A stretch of 64,000 nucleotides of DNA from Bradyrhizobium ivorense (GTDB lineage: Bacteria; Pseudomonadota; Alphaproteobacteria; Rhizobiales; Xanthobacteraceae). A program made the translations under genes and the position numbers. Location: positions 62,001 through 126,000 of the forward strand of contig NZ_CAADFC020000022.1 of the NCBI RefSeq assembly GCF_900696085.1. The letters run 5' to 3'. This document shows positions 20,269-57,433 of the stretch, piece by piece (positions within the stretch are counted from its first letter, which is position 1; every line of letters begins with the position of its first letter). The notes beneath the pieces were generated by a model, which did not search any database, was not told the DNA's origin, and saw only the letters and a list, made by a program, of their open reading frames with translations.

Positions 20269-21015
20269 ATGAAAAAGGTTTTGCTTGTCACGGCCAGCCT
20301 GATCGCGCTCGCTGCGGTCACTCCGGCCTCCGCGGCCGATCTCGCGGCTCGCCCTTACACCAAGGCACCGCCGATGGTTGCCGCCGTGTATGACTGGACG
20401 GGCTTCTACATCGGCGTCAACGGCGGTTGGGGCTCCAGCCGCAGCAGCTGGAACTCGGTTGCGCCGTTCCTGGTGGGCGGCGAAGGCAGCCACGATGCGG
20501 ACGGCGGCACGGTCGGTGGTCAGATCGGCTATCGCTGGCAGTCCGGCGGCTGGGTGTTCGGCCTCGAAGCTCAGGGCAACTGGGCTGACTTCAAGGGCAG
20601 CAACAACAGCCTGCTGTTCCCCGGCTTCGTGAATACGTCGAAGACTGAAGCATTCGGCCTGTTCACCGGTCAGATCGGTTACGCCTGGAACACCACCTTG
20701 CTCTACTTCAAGGGTGGTGCTGCTGTGACCTCGGACAAGCATCGCATCAACTCGGCTGCCACTGGCGCGCTGTTTGCGAGCTCGAACGATGACACCAACT
20801 GGGGTGGCACCGTCGGTGTTGGTCTCGAATGGGCGTTCGCTCCGGGCTGGTCGGCTGGCGTCGAGTACGACCATCTGTTCATGCAGGATCGTACCGTCAA
20901 CTTCACCTCGCCGGCCGGCGCGCTTGTCGCCAGCGACCGCATCAATCAGGACGTCGACCTCGTCACCGTCCGCCTGAACTACAAGTTCGGCGGCCCGGTC
21001 GTGGCGCGCTACTGA
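20269..21015 (+). CDS. Outer-membrane beta-barrel protein (Omp25/31-like)
   Basis: The 248-residue protein has a signal peptide (KKVLLVTASLIALAAVTPASA), then DLAARPYTKAPPMVAAVYDWTG, the typical opening of rhizobial opacity/Omp25-Omp31 family barrels, and GFYIGVNGGWG. It ends in VRLNYKFGGPVVARY, a C-terminal strand recognised by the BAM complex. About eight strands are expected. Synonymous codons (many GGT, GTC, CTG) suggest high expression. An upstream in-frame ATG would add 30 residues before the signal peptide and is rejected. A strong terminator follows. Confidence 0.9.
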   Translation: MKKVLLVTASLIALAAVTPASAADLAARPYTKAPPMVAAVYDWTGFYIGVNGGWGSSRSSWNSVAPFLVGGEGSHDADGGTVGGQIGYRWQSGGWVFGLEAQGNWADFKGSNNSLLFPGFVNTSKTEAFGLFTGQIGYAWNTTLLYFKGGAAVTSDKHRINSAATGALFASSNDDTNWGGTVGVGLEWAFAPGWSAGVEYDHLFMQDRTVNFTSPAGALVASDRINQDVDLVTVRLNYKFGGPVVARY

Positions 21016-21043
21016 TCGCTCGCTTAATTCAAGCGACACAGAA

Positions 21044-21071
21044 AGCCCCGGGCTCTGCCCGGGGCTTTTTT
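21044..21071 (+). terminator. Rho-independent terminator of the outer-membrane protein gene
   Basis: A perfect 10-bp stem AGCCCCGGGC (21044-21053)/GCCCGGGGCT (21057-21066) with loop TCT is followed by a T-run (to 21071). Confidence 0.92.
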
Positions 21072-21144
21072 CTTTGGCGGGTTGGCTGAGACGCGCGGAT
21101 TAACCATCGGTCGCGATCGCGAGAGAGACCCTTGCCGGGCGCGC

Positions 21145-21172
21145 TTGACTCCTAGAACAAAAAAGGAACAAT
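21145..21172 (+). promoter_or_regulatory. Promoter of the 32-residue peptide gene
   Basis: TTGACT (21145-21150), 16 bases, AACAAT (21167-21172) resembles a sigma-70 promoter. The first LexA box lies in its spacer, so repressor binding would block RNA polymerase. Confidence 0.5.
21155..21169 (+). promoter_or_regulatory. LexA box 1 (GAAC-N7-GAAC)
   Basis: GAAC (21155-21158), seven bases, GAAC (21166-21169) is an exact alphaproteobacterial SOS box (GTTC-N7-GTTC on the other strand). It lies between the -35 and -10 elements of the micro-gene promoter. Confidence 0.8.
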
Positions 21173-21187
21173 GTTCTGCATACGTTC
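21173..21187 (+). promoter_or_regulatory. LexA box 2 (GTTC-N7-GTTC)
   Basis: GTTC (21173-21176), seven bases, GTTC (21184-21187) is a second exact SOS box in opposite orientation, three bases after box 1 and around the expected transcription start. A third GTTC follows at 21190. Confidence 0.78.
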
Positions 21188-21206
21188 CAGTTCACGGGAG
21201 GCAAAC

Positions 21207-21305
21207 ATGCTGAAGGTTTTCGTGGAAGAAGCGGCGGCGCTGGCATCGATCACGCTGTTCGTCGGGATGATCGCGGTGTGGGCTCAGCTGATCCCGCAAT
21301 TCTGA
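21207..21305 (+). CDS. 32-residue single-span membrane peptide under LexA control (SidA-like candidate)
   Basis: ATG 21207 is preceded by a strong Shine-Dalgarno GGGAGG (21196-21201). The product begins MLKVFVEEAAALAS, continues with a hydrophobic helix (about residues 9-29, LFVGMIAVWAQ) and ends LIPQF. Two exact LexA boxes overlap its promoter. In Caulobacter, SidA is a LexA-controlled inner-membrane peptide of 29 residues that blocks division through FtsW/FtsN; size, topology and control are alike here, and dnaE is the next gene. I infer an SOS-induced division inhibitor; sequence homology to SidA cannot be tested from the window alone. Confidence 0.65.
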   Translation: MLKVFVEEAAALASITLFVGMIAVWAQLIPQF

Positions 21306-21497
21306 GAATGTGTGAGCAGGAACAGGGATATAGTGCGCCTTGTGGAGCTTTGGGGATAAGCGGTTAAAGCGATCAATCCACAGCGTTCCGCGTGGACTCG
21401 ACAGTGCTCAAGCCTCACGATGCGAGGGCGAGTCGGGTCTGTCATTCTCCGAGGCCCGGCGCTCGCTCATCCCTGACGCAGACACCTTTGAGCAGCC

Positions 21498-24400
21498 ATG
21501 TCGAATGCCGGATTCGTTCATCTTCACGTTCATTCGGCCTATTCGCTGCTGAAGGGCTCGATCAAGATCGCCAAACTCGGCGAGCTTGCGAAGGCCGACC
21601 GCCAACCGGCGCTGGCGCTCACCGACACCGACAACATGTTCGGGGCGCTGGAATTCTCCGACAAGATGGCCGGCTATGGCATCCAGCCGATCGTCGGCTG
21701 CGAGATCGCGGTGGATTTCGGCGACGTCGATCCGACGTCGCGCAGCATTCTGGCGGCGGGGCCGACGCGCATCGTGCTGCTGGCGGCGCGCGAGCGCGGC
21801 TACCAGAACCTGATGCGGCTGAACTCGCGGGCGTTTTTGGAGACGCCGGTCAACCAGACCCCGCACATCAAGTTCGACTGGCTCGCCGACAACGCCGAGG
21901 ATCTGATCGCGCTGACCGGCGGGCCCGACGGGCCGATCGCGATGGCGCTGCGCGCCGATCAGGCGCAGCTGGCGGCCGCGCGCTGCGAGCGTCTCGCCAG
22001 CCGGTTCGGCGACCGTCTCTACATCGAATTGCAGCGCCACGGCGTCGACAAGGAACGGCGCACCGAGACCGGCCTGATCGATCTCGCCTACGCCAAGGGC
22101 CTGCCGCTGGTCGCAACCAACGAGCCGTATTTCGCGACCAACGACGACTATGAATCGCATGACGCGCTGCTCTGCATCGCCGGCGGCCATCTGATCGCCG
22201 AGACCAATCGCGAGCAGCTGACGCCCGATCACCGCTTCAAGACCCGGGCGGAAATGGCGGTGCTGTTCGCCGACATTCCGGAGGCGCTAGCCTCGACGGT
22301 CGAGATCGCCGAGCGCTGCTCGTTCCGGCCGAAGACGCGCAAGCCGATTCTGCCGTTCTTCACCGTCGGCGCCGAATCGAGCGTGGACGCCGCCGCCGAC
22401 GAGGCCGCCGAGCTGAAGCGTCAGGCCGAGGAGGGGCTTGCCAACCGCCTGCGCGTGCACGGGCTGTCGCCGGGCATGACCGAGGAGGACTACAGCAAGC
22501 GGCTCGCCTTCGAGCTCGACGTCATCACCCGCATGAAATATGCGGGCTACTTCCTGATCGTGTCCGACTTCATCAAATGGGCCAAGGCGCAGGGCATTCC
22601 GGTCGGGCCAGGCCGCGGCTCCGGCGCGGGCTCGCTGGTGGCGTGGGTGCTGACCATCACCGACCTCGATCCGATGCGCTTTGCGCTGCTGTTCGAGCGC
22701 TTCCTCAATCCTGAGCGCGTTTCGATGCCGGACTTCGACATCGACTTCTGCCAGGATCGCCGCGGCGAGGTGATCCAGTATGTGCAGGAGCGCTACGGCC
22801 GCGACCAGGTGGCACAGATCATCACCTTCGGTACGCTGCAGGCGCGCGGCGTGCTGCGCGACGTCGGCCGCGTGCTGCAGATGCCCTATGGTCAGGTCGA
22901 CAAGCTGACAAAACTGGTGCCGCAAAATCCGGCGGCCCCCGTGACGCTGGCGCAGGCGATCGAGGGTGAGCCGAAGCTACAGGCGTTCCGCGACGAGGAT
23001 CCGGTGGTGGCGCGCGCCTTCGACATCGCGCAGCGCCTGGAGGGCCTGACCCGCCACGCCTCGACCCACGCCGCCGGCATCGTGATCGGCGATCGCCCGC
23101 TCAGCGAGCTGGTGCCGATGTATCGCGATCCGAAATCCGACATGCCGGTCACCCAGTTCAACATGAAATGGGTCGAGCCCGCGGGCCTCGTCAAATTCGA
23201 CTTCCTCGGCCTCAAGACGCTGACCGTGCTCGACGTCGCGGTCAAGCTGCTCAAGCAGCGCGACATCCATGTCGATCTCGCGACGCTGCCGATCGACGAC
23301 GCAGCGAGTTACCAGATGCTGGCGCGCGGCGATGTGGTCGGCGTGTTCCAGGTGGAAAGCCAGGGCATGCGGCGCGCGCTGATCGACATGCGGCCGGACC
23401 GTTTCGAGGACATCATCGCGCTGGTGGCGCTGTATCGCCCCGGTCCGATGGCGAACATCCCGACCTACTGCGCGCGCAAGCACGGCGACGAGGAGCCGGA
23501 GTATCTGCATCCGATCCTGGAGCCGATCCTGAAAGAGACCTTCGGCGTCATCATCTATCAGGAACAGGTGATGCAGATCGCGCAGCAGATGGCCGGCTAC
23601 TCGCTCGGCCAGGCCGACCTGCTGCGCCGCGCGATGGGCAAGAAGATCCGCGCCGAGATGGACAAGCAGCGCGACGTCTTCGTCGCCGGCGCGACCAAGA
23701 ACGGCGTCACGAAGGGCCAGGCGGAGACCATCTTCGAGCTGCTGGCAAAGTTCGCCGACTACGGCTTCAACAAGAGCCACGCCGCCGCCTACGCGCTGGT
23801 GTCCTACCACACCGCCTACATGAAGGCGCATTACCCGGTCGAGTTCTTGGCGGCGTCGATGACGCTCGAACTCAACAACACCGACAAGCTCTCCGAATTC
23901 CGCTCCGAGGCGCAGCGGCTCGGCATCAAGGTCGAGGCGCCCAACATCAATCGCTCCGGCGCGACCTTCGAGGTCGGCGACAAGACGATCTATTACGCGC
24001 TCGCCGCGCTGAAGGGCGTCGGCATCCAGGCCGTCGAGCAGATCATCGCGGAGCGCAACAACAAGGGCGCCTTCACCTCGCTCGCCGATTTCGCCTCGCG
24101 CGTCAGCCCGAGGGCCATCAACAAGCGGATCATCGAGAGCCTGGCTGCGGCGGGCGCCTTCGACACGCTCGAGCCGAACCGCGCGCGGGTGTTCGCCGGC
24201 GCGGATTCGATCCTCGCCGCCTGCCAGCGCAGCCACGAGGCCGCGACGTCGGGGCAGAACGACATGTTCGGCGGCGCCGCGGATGCTCCCAGCATCATGC
24301 TGCCGCAGGTCGAGCCTTGGCTGCCCGCGGACCGGCTGCGCCGCGAATATGACGCGATCGGCTTCTTCCTGTCGGGGCATCCGCTCGACGATTACGCGAC

Positions 24401-25028
24401 CGCGCTGAAGCGGCTGCGCGTGCAATCCTGGGCGGAATTTTCCCGCGCGGTCAAAACCGGCGCGACCGCCGGCAAGGTCGCCGCCACCGTGGTGTCGCGC
24501 ATGGAGCGGCGCACCAAGACCGGCAACAAGATGGGCATCATGGGCCTGTCGGACCCGACCGGCCATTTCGAGGCGGTGCTGTTCTCCGAAGGGCTCGCGC
24601 AGTACCGCGACGTGCTCGAGCCGGGCGCAGCGGTGCTGCTGCAGCTCGGCGCCGAGCTGCAGGGCGAGGACGTGCGGGCGAGGGTGCTGCACGCCGAACC
24701 GCTCGATCACGCCGCGGCCAAGACCCAGAAGGGCCTGCGCATCTTCGTGCGCGACACCAGGCCGCTCGACTCGATCGCCCGCCGGCTCAACATGCCGGAC
24801 GCGGCGCCCGCCGCGGGCGCAGGCGGCGCGCCAAAGCCGCCGGTGCTCAAGCCGGGCGCAGCGCCTGCACCGCCGCCCGCGGGGGCCGACGGCGACGTCT
24901 CGCTGGTGATGATGCTCGACCTCGAGACCGAGGTGGAGATGAAGCTGCCGGGCCGCTACAAGGTCTCGCCGCAGATCGCCGGCGCGATCAAGGCCGTGGC
25001 CGGGGTCGTCGACGTCCAGACGCTGTAA
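21498..25028 (+). CDS. dnaE: DNA polymerase III alpha subunit
   Basis: The 1176-residue replicative polymerase has an N-terminal PHP domain (FVHLHVHSAYSLLKGS, residues 6-21), the family C catalytic core with GPGRGSGAGSLVAWVL and the PDFDIDF aspartates at about 412-416, a beta-clamp binding motif QNDMF at about residue 920, an OB domain (GKVAATVVSRMERRTKTGNKMG) and a Pro/Ala-rich linker before the C-terminal tau-binding region. Length and order match dnaE1. No clear Shine-Dalgarno precedes the ATG. About 190 bases separate it from the LexA-controlled micro-gene, so the two might be co-transcribed under SOS conditions. Confidence 0.96.
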   Translation: MSNAGFVHLHVHSAYSLLKGSIKIAKLGELAKADRQPALALTDTDNMFGALEFSDKMAGYGIQPIVGCEIAVDFGDVDPTSRSILAAGPTRIVLLAARERGYQNLMRLNSRAFLETPVNQTPHIKFDWLADNAEDLIALTGGPDGPIAMALRADQAQLAAARCERLASRFGDRLYIELQRHGVDKERRTETGLIDLAYAKGLPLVATNEPYFATNDDYESHDALLCIAGGHLIAETNREQLTPDHRFKTRAEMAVLFADIPEALASTVEIAERCSFRPKTRKPILPFFTVGAESSVDAAADEAAELKRQAEEGLANRLRVHGLSPGMTEEDYSKRLAFELDVITRMKYAGYFLIVSDFIKWAKAQGIPVGPGRGSGAGSLVAWVLTITDLDPMRFALLFERFLNPERVSMPDFDIDFCQDRRGEVIQYVQERYGRDQVAQIITFGTLQARGVLRDVGRVLQMPYGQVDKLTKLVPQNPAAPVTLAQAIEGEPKLQAFRDEDPVVARAFDIAQRLEGLTRHASTHAAGIVIGDRPLSELVPMYRDPKSDMPVTQFNMKWVEPAGLVKFDFLGLKTLTVLDVAVKLLKQRDIHVDLATLPIDDAASYQMLARGDVVGVFQVESQGMRRALIDMRPDRFEDIIALVALYRPGPMANIPTYCARKHGDEEPEYLHPILEPILKETFGVIIYQEQVMQIAQQMAGYSLGQADLLRRAMGKKIRAEMDKQRDVFVAGATKNGVTKGQAETIFELLAKFADYGFNKSHAAAYALVSYHTAYMKAHYPVEFLAASMTLELNNTDKLSEFRSEAQRLGIKVEAPNINRSGATFEVGDKTIYYALAALKGVGIQAVEQIIAERNNKGAFTSLADFASRVSPRAINKRIIESLAAAGAFDTLEPNRARVFAGADSILAACQRSHEAATSGQNDMFGGAADAPSIMLPQVEPWLPADRLRREYDAIGFFLSGHPLDDYATALKRLRVQSWAEFSRAVKTGATAGKVAATVVSRMERRTKTGNKMGIMGLSDPTGHFEAVLFSEGLAQYRDVLEPGAAVLLQLGAELQGEDVRARVLHAEPLDHAAAKTQKGLRIFVRDTRPLDSIARRLNMPDAAPAAGAGGAPKPPVLKPGAAPAPPPAGADGDVSLVMMLDLETEVEMKLPGRYKVSPQIAGAIKAVAGVVDVQTL

Positions 25029-56144: not shown

Positions 56145-56159
56145 GTTCGATATGTGTTC
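56145..56159 (-). promoter_or_regulatory. LexA box upstream of lexA (GTTC-N7-GTTC)
   Basis: GTTC (56145-56148), seven bases, GTTC (56156-56159) lies 131 bases upstream of the lexA start. It is an exact match to the alphaproteobacterial SOS operator and supports autoregulation. A TATAGT-like -10 follows it on the minus strand. Confidence 0.85.
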
Positions 56160-56221: not shown

Positions 56222-57433
56222 TCACTCCGGCATCGTGAGGATCTCGCATTCGGCGCCGCTCGCGGCCGCGGGCGCGAACGGCGGACGAACGAGAAGTGCC
56301 TGCGCCGCAGCGAGATTCCCCAGCAGCGATGAGTCCTGCTTCAGCACGGGCGTTGCGATCAGCGTGCCGTCCGCGCGCGCCTCGAGGCGGGCGCGCAAGT
56401 AATCCTCACGCTGGTCGTTGGCGGCGAGATCGCGGCCGAGCAATGCGCGCGCGCGGACGTGATGAATCACCTTGCGGCCGCTCAGTGCCCGAATCAGCGG
56501 CACCAGGAACAGGTAGGCGCAGACATAGGACGACACCGGATTGCCGGGCAGGCCGATCACCCGCATCGCGCCGAGCCGGCCGTGCATCATCGGCTTGCCG
56601 GGCCGCATCGCGATCCGCCAGAACGCCATGGTGACGCCCTCGGCCTCCAGCGACTGCTTGACCAGGTCGTGGTCGCCGACCGAGGCGCCGCCGGTGGTTA
56701 TCAGGACGTCGGCGCCGGCATCGCGCGCTCGGCGGATGCCTGCGGTCGTTGCGGCCACGGTGTCGGCGGCGATCCCGAGATCGATCGTCTCGGCACCCTC
56801 GGCGCGGGCCAACGCCCGCAGCGCATAGCCGTTGGAATAGACGATCTGGCCGGGACCCGGCTTGGAACCCGGCATCACCAGCTCGTCGCCGGTTGCCAGC
56901 ACCGCGACTCTGGGACGGCGGCGCACCGCGAGTTCCGGATAGTTCATGGCGGCGGCAAGCGAGAGCGCGCGGTCGGAGAGGCGGCTGCCGGCCGCAAGCA
57001 GCACGTCGCCTTCGCGGAAGTCGACACCGGGGGGACGGATATGCCGCCCGGTGACCGCCGTCTCGGTGATGGTGATGTGGTCGCCATCGACCCTGGTGTC
57101 TTCCTGGATGATCACAGCGTCGGCGCCGTTGGGGATCACGCCGCCGGTAAAGATCCGCACCGCTTCGCCGGCGCCGACGGTGCGCTCGAACGGGCGGCCG
57201 GCGGCGACCTCGCCGATCACCTTCAGCCGCGCCGACAGGTCGGCCGCATCGATCGCGCGCACGGCATAGCCGTCCATCGCCGACATCGCTTGCGGCGGCT
57301 GGGTGCGCAGCGCCGCGACGTCGCGCGCCAGCGTGCGGTGATAGGCGGCATCGAGGCCGACCATCTCCTCAGGCAGCGGCTCGGCGCCGGCGAGAATCGC
57401 GGACAGGGCATCGGCAACCGGCATCAAGGCCAC
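56222..57433 (-). CDS. moeA: Molybdopterin molybdotransferase MoeA
   Basis: The 403-residue enzyme inserts molybdate into adenylylated molybdopterin. Landmarks are QAMSAMDGYAVRAIDA (residue about 48), GGVIPNGADAVIIQED, AVLATGDELVMPG, TTGGASVGDHDLVKQSLE and GLPGNPVSSYVCAYLF. The normal four-domain length is present. Twelve bases separate it from the HAD gene upstream; lexA follows downstream after 207 bases with its own promoter. Confidence 0.95.
   Translation of the reverse strand: MALMPVADALSAILAGAEPLPEEMVGLDAAYHRTLARDVAALRTQPPQAMSAMDGYAVRAIDAADLSARLKVIGEVAAGRPFERTVGAGEAVRIFTGGVIPNGADAVIIQEDTRVDGDHITITETAVTGRHIRPPGVDFREGDVLLAAGSRLSDRALSLAAAMNYPELAVRRRPRVAVLATGDELVMPGSKPGPGQIVYSNGYALRALARAEGAETIDLGIAADTVAATTAGIRRARDAGADVLITTGGASVGDHDLVKQSLEAEGVTMAFWRIAMRPGKPMMHGRLGAMRVIGLPGNPVSSYVCAYLFLVPLIRALSGRKVIHHVRARALLGRDLAANDQREDYLRARLEARADGTLIATPVLKQDSSLLGNLAAAQALLVRPPFAPAAASGAECEILTMPE

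Follow-up and report, generated by a model that had tools for sequence, protein, structure and literature searches.

The closest described system is SidA of Caulobacter, an SOS inhibitor of 29 residues that resides in the inner membrane and targets FtsW (PMC4211646). A lexA mutant lacking sidA no longer filaments (PMC12700426), and an AlphaFold 3 model, not considered by its authors to be of high confidence, places SidA on TM7 of FtsW (PMC13396833). The Caulobacter LexA motif has been published as GTTCN7GTTC, with a single box described at ~97% of the SOS promoters (PMC12700426), and the dnaE gene of that organism is listed as CC1926 (PMC1839093). DidA, also from Caulobacter, resembles the peptide considered here in being small and single-helical and is likewise a damage-induced division inhibitor by description, but it has 71 residues, is SOS-independent and DriD-driven, and binds FtsN (PMC4211646). 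YneA (Bacillus), SosA (Staphylococcus), and ChiZ (Mycobacterium), compared here by description, are SOS- or damage-induced small membrane proteins that target the synthesis of the septal wall and differ in possessing extracytoplasmic parts, including a LysM domain in YneA (PMC13396833). Among the SOS products of Escherichia coli, SulA disrupts FtsZ polymerization (PMC4211646), whereas DinQ, which is small and hydrophobic like the present peptide and is encoded by an SOS gene, is described as a toxin with an antisense RNA (PMC3567139).

The window (the whole 64,000-nt stretch of DNA analyzed here) contains, 192 nt upstream of dnaE, a 32-codon frame whose translation is MLKVFVEEAAALASITLFVGMIAVWAQLIPQF. 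With a probability of roughly 77%, this frame encodes, under SOS control, the SidA-type division inhibitor of the Bradyrhizobium lineage; its role would be that of SulA in Escherichia coli, an SOS checkpoint on division, although SulA is not a membrane peptide. To our knowledge, the damage-triggered arrest of division has been little studied in other alphaproteobacteria, including the nitrogen-fixing symbionts. The features of the locus are collected in Table 1.

Table 1. Features of the sidA-like locus and of the lexA region within the window.
Feature	Position	Strand	Basis or remark
-35 element TTGACT	21145..21150	+	promoter scan; TTGAC conserved in relatives' arrays
LexA box 1, GAAC-N7-GAAC, in promoter spacer	21155..21169	-	exact motif; conserved in relatives
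Candidate -10 AACAAT, on the 3-bp joint of the two boxes	21167..21172	+	promoter scan; -10 role inferred
LexA box 2, GTTC-N7-GTTC; would cover transcription start	21173..21187	+	exact motif; conserved in relatives
Shine-Dalgarno GGGAGG	21196..21201	+	direct reading of letters
sidA-like gene, 32-residue peptide	21207..21305	+	ATG 21207 to TGA 21305
dnaE, DNA polymerase III alpha subunit	21498..25028	+	downstream linked neighbor
lexA of the same genome	55313..56014 (match range)	-	sequence match
Exact LexA box ~130 nt upstream of lexA, internal control for the box	56145..56159	+	exact motif

The Shine-Dalgarno sequence, the 32-codon frame, and the single hydrophobic helix put forward in a preliminary description of this DNA were all recovered. 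A longer in-frame ORF also begins at ATG 21171; nevertheless, conservation among relatives starts at ATG 21207. AlphaFold2 returns a single helix spanning residues 2-31 (pLDDT 96), predicted here to be one membrane helix, and both the helix and the length agree with what is expected of a SidA-type peptide (about 29-35 residues with one hydrophobic helix). The outer-membrane-barrel gene that precedes the peptide gene is followed by a terminator-like hairpin at 21050-21067, and a scan of the interval between the peptide gene and dnaE (21305-21498) found no terminator-like site; given this and the 24-56 nt gap in Caulobacter, dnaE and the SOS peptide may share a transcript. Between 20900 and 21700, an Rfam scan produced nothing at gathering score, and the 14 sub-threshold matches (13 over the 21050-21067 hairpin and one inside the frame) were taken as chance. 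A tblastn search of plasmids and phages with the peptide gave no match up to E 1.

In all 60 genomes of the genus that were searched, own included, the best match to the peptide is an open frame, free of the stops and frameshifts that the preliminary description regarded as incompatible with its proposal; identity in the other 59 ranges from 74 to 97%, and 42 of 61 family genomes (own and one congener included) likewise yielded a match. The 58 loci read, which are those returned by the genus search (60 matches) and the family search (42), own included, invariably begin with ATG and encode 32 residues in 57 cases and 33 in one. Each has at least one exact LexA box within 120 nt (an inverted pair in 54, one box in 4), and dnaE lies downstream on the same strand in 57, at distances of 110-1101 nt, so that the shared conservation of frame, boxes, and dnaE linkage, proposed earlier as a check, is borne out. 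Among the best 80 of 294 confirmed named loci, mostly from Bradyrhizobium, the paired array is present in 78, a single box in one, and no box in one; dnaE accompanies 79 (median distance, 192 nt), and 79 peptides have 32 residues and one has 33. These best 80 of 294 include records from Bradyrhizobium, Rhodopseudomonas, Afipia, and Tardiphaga that carry the candidate gene, as well as a Nitrobacter MAG that carries it but has no exact box within 120 nt.

Nucleotide variation among the loci falls at third positions (minority bases at codon positions 1/2/3, 249/91/582), and mean pS is 0.54 versus a mean pN of 0.12 over 57 comparisons against the window CDS, a substitution pattern indicating that the sidA-like frame is under purifying selection. 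Residues K/R3, E8, L12, F18, and W25 are retained throughout both in the 58 loci read and in the best 80 of 294 named loci. Because the open frame, the purifying selection, the boxes, and the dnaE linkage are all kept among relatives, it is near certain that 21207-21305 is a real gene with LexA boxes. Across the family, the paired box array was found in 74 of 119 genomes (reversed control pattern, 4), and some members of the family lack the gene at their dnaE locus. One genus of the family that escaped the sequence search encodes diverged 32-mers, downstream of paired boxes and upstream of dnaE, in both of its genomes that were read; the 19 family genomes without a peptide match comprise 2 with diverged 32-mers, 13 with no box, and 4 that could not be judged, i.e., no exact LexA box occurs within 1.5 kb before dnaE in 13 of the 15 that were judgeable. 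These 13 box-less genomes present an apparent loss or relocation of the gene; a search of the gene-less genomes for one-mismatch boxes or short hydrophobic ORFs before dnaE turned up a few isolated one-mismatch boxes, confined to three genomes, along with two ORFs that did not convince.

A LexA box in the promoter is among the features expected of a SidA-type SOS division inhibitor, and in sequence terms it is present here. The two exact SOS boxes reported earlier were confirmed, and the first lies, as had been claimed, across the spacer of a promoter-like site, TTGACT-16-AACAAT (21145-21172), that is the sole one in 21000-21520 (shuffles, 0.2) and matches the consensus at only 9 of 12 positions. 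One LexA box alone is weak evidence, as the window holds 4 exact matches against a mean of 1.55 in 100 shuffles, 6 of which reach 4, and single GTTC-N7-GTTC motifs number 207 on both strands of the whole genome versus 204 for a control pattern. The 9.4-Mb genome contains a single copy of the paired array GAAC-N7-GAAC-N(0-10)-GTTC-N7-GTTC and none of its control. In all 53 aligned arrays of relatives, TTGAC is situated 3-15 nt upstream of box 1 (a count with no chance control), the joint between the boxes measures 3 bp in 51 of the 53 and reads A/T-A/T-T, and its last T, which is also the last T of AACAAT, is invariant in all 51 arrays of 33 bp. The -10 element likely lies on the joint, the spacer falling under box 1 and the start site under box 2, a spacing at which two LexA dimers would occlude RNA polymerase. 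The placement of an inverted box pair about the -10 points to tight repression, which is what one would expect for a peptide able to halt division.

The identity of GAAC/GTTC-N7 as the LexA box in this organism is supported by the exact box upstream of its own lexA and by the 7 genomes, out of 12 with twin boxes in other genera, that carry the array before lexA. These genomes came from a twin-box search of the class in which 14 of 385 genomes matched (reversed control, 2), namely 2 of the window's genus, 7 with the array before lexA, as recognized by the LexA N-terminus, and 5 that look like chance. In those 7 genomes, which belong to other alphaproteobacterial families, the inverted boxes upstream of lexA stand 8-10 bp apart (pattern maximum, 10). 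The window also has a further exact match at 56276-56290, farther upstream of lexA.

The preliminary description had stated that sidA lies beside dnaE in Caulobacter, and genome comparison bears this out. A search of the Caulobacter family with a 29-residue peptide found before the dnaE of one of its members matched 49 of 60 genomes at E <=10, many of them weakly; dnaE was present in all 30 loci returned. In 20 of these loci a short peptide is accompanied by an exact box no more than 120 nt away, 7 of the 20 having two boxes 18 bp apart. One genus of the family was taken as Caulobacter since 36 of its 61 genomes bear crescentin, a family that in a set of 14 named control genomes matches only Caulobacter vibrioides; of these 36 crescentin-bearing genomes, 30 were sampled. 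All 30 encode a peptide of 29-30 residues at 24-56 nt before dnaE (29 residues in 27 loci, one with a GTG start, and 30 in 3, where an ATG stands just before the printed frame). Of the 30, 21 have an exact LexA box no more than 120 nt away; in the remaining 9, two boxes with one mismatch each stand at -51 and -33, and their 18-bp start-to-start spacing is that of the exact pair in the window. As the one peptide among these that was submitted to NCBIfam was identified there as 'cell division inhibitor SidA' (NF033228; 72.3 bits, cut-off 35), sidA can be said to precede dnaE in Caulobacter as the present gene does in the window. The dnaE-adjacent, same-strand position characteristic of the SidA type is accordingly common to the window, 57 of the 58 loci, 79 of the best 80 of 294 named loci, and 30 of 30 Caulobacter genomes.

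Direct sequence similarity is weak. NF033228 gives no match to the window peptide up to E 1 or to a second peptide of the window's family up to E 10, and it scores a 29-mer from another genus of the Caulobacter family at 20.5 bits (cut-off 35). In an ungapped alignment with three Caulobacter-family peptides, the window peptide shares 9-10 identities over 29 positions; a profile comparison with Caulobacter-family peptides recovers the same ungapped register (40% identity, 25 columns, E 0.0027) at a probability of only 11%. Scored against the window-family profile, the Caulobacter SidA peptide has p 0.08 and a sister peptide of the genus p 0.005. Homology of the window peptide to SidA is nonetheless likely, in view of the position, the boxes, the size, the 9-10 shared residues, and the existence of intermediates. 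The earlier proposal of a SidA equivalent in the Bradyrhizobium lineage is supported as to SidA type, whereas identification as SidA by the existing model is not, because NF033228 does not match the window peptide. Like SidA, the window gene has LexA box(es) upstream and directly precedes dnaE on the same strand, and both peptides have one predicted helix, a short N-terminal arm with basic and acidic residues, and few charges thereafter; the window peptide differs in being 2-3 residues longer (32 versus 29-30) and in having W25-A26-Q27 near its end, and its gene in having an exact inverted box pair with 3 bp between. In this comparison the window gene would be a diverged SidA-type member with a paired-box promoter.

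A mechanism can be proposed on this basis. In the undamaged cell, two LexA dimers on the paired boxes would occlude the -35/-10 promoter; when DNA is damaged, RecA would trigger LexA self-cleavage, the promoter would open, and the 32-residue peptide would be made and would insert in the inner membrane as one helix. Under the positive-inside rule, the basic residue 3, the acidic residue 8, and the scarcity of later charge suggest an N-in, C-out topology, such that the short N-terminal arm (K/R3, E8) would face the cytoplasm. The peptide would then bind the septal wall-synthesis complex (FtsW, FtsI/FtsN) and keep it inactive until repair is done. The peptide probably acts on FtsW/FtsI/FtsN, the locus and the likely descent making FtsW with FtsI/FtsN the most probable target. 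The sequence itself establishes the gene, its boxes, their conservation and linkage, and a predicted helix; LexA binding, induction, topology, FtsW binding, and division arrest are features that we infer.

Other functions could be served by a gene of this kind. TisB of Escherichia coli is an SOS-induced small hydrophobic peptide and a toxin with an antisense RNA, with which type I toxins are usually paired; we know of no division-inhibitor role for either TisB or DinQ. Were the window gene to encode such a peptide, one that depolarizes the inner membrane and slows growth with no specificity for the divisome, its size, single helix, and LexA boxes would be explained equally well, and DinQ, the product of an SOS gene, has been described as toxic and single-transmembrane (PMC3567139). 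The location of the gene at the SidA position beside dnaE and its similar sequence core nevertheless argue against this; the Rfam scan revealed no known antisense RNA, although an undescribed RNA would escape it, and we consider a TisB- or DinQ-like toxin unlikely. The divergence of the sequence from SidA could also mean that a LexA-controlled membrane peptide of the SidA line has changed its role and acquired another target, in keeping with which DidA, another small Caulobacter inhibitor, is reported to act through FtsN (PMC4211646); as the regulation, size, and locus are the same, such a shift would be less economical, and it appears improbable.

A further alternative is that the frame is a cis-acting leader peptide or upstream ORF of little importance in itself, LexA really controlling dnaE. 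The constancy of the dnaE linkage, the short intergenic distance in Caulobacter, and the lack of a terminator-like site between the two genes in the window are all compatible with such an arrangement; on the other hand, dnaE begins anywhere from 110 to 1101 nt away among the loci that were read, the amino acids are constrained along the helix, and Caulobacter SidA works as a protein (PMC4211646), which together leave a mere leader function very improbable. A SidA-type division inhibitor thus remains the preferred reading.

The same arrangement recurs more widely in the Alphaproteobacteria. dnaE was matched in 142 of 241 class genomes, and 109 of the 141 other than the window's own were examined over <=1.5 kb upstream (29 loci returned and 80 fetched, the 32 left out being mostly small genomes). 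An exact LexA box is present in 27 of these 109 upstreams and absent from 82; 20 combine the box with a Shine-Dalgarno sequence and a hydrophobic frame of 25-50 residues on the dnaE strand, and in the remaining 7 the box is unaccompanied by a peptide of this kind. The opposite strand and a control pattern each gave 0 of 109, and 20 rounds of shuffling a mean of 0.1 and a maximum of 1. By family label, the 20 module-bearing upstreams are spread over 11 families besides that of the window. Their 19 distinct peptides match the window-family profile with a joint p of ~3e-11 under segment-preserving shuffles that keep helix composition, a value inflated by the relatedness of the peptides, which are not phylogenetically independent; single p values run from 0.001 to 0.65, the five best being 0.001-0.005. 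A six-residue motif test (14 of 19 versus 1.3 expected) was not counted, as the motif had been defined after viewing the sequences. Also set aside as evidence was a class-wide family-profile search, in which 111 of 240 genomes (own included) had hits at E <=5, those listed being mostly short pieces of larger frames; it produced nothing convincing outside the family, the best hit (E 0.003) lying inside a 283-residue frame. Short hydrophobic frames of 31-47 residues that follow a LexA box and precede dnaE were noted across many alphaproteobacterial families (13 loci), and these perhaps constitute a large hidden SidA-like family.

No description of SidA in the Bradyrhizobium lineage was found in the literature searched, a search that most subscription papers, the original SidA paper among them, lay outside. 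One paper retrieved as a possible SidA/LexA study of Rhizobiales was dismissed, the matching word in the accessible text being Sidak (PMC10811719), and the accessible part of another mentions Bradyrhizobium only as the source of higA (PMC13384398).

These results supply a testable division-inhibitor candidate for Bradyrhizobium, Rhodopseudomonas, Afipia, Tardiphaga, and a Nitrobacter MAG, and searching for the arrangement of box, peptide, and dnaE yields candidates that were missed by the sequence models tried. We tentatively suggest, at somewhat less than even odds, that LexA box, membrane peptide, and dnaE form an ancestral alphaproteobacterial checkpoint module in which a fast-evolving SidA family serves as a common brake on division under SOS conditions across the class and from which, in some lineages, transcription continues into dnaE. 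If so, the NCBIfam SidA model would catch, among the peptides tested, only the Caulobacter end of the family, and transcription into dnaE would let one signal both stop division and refit the replisome.
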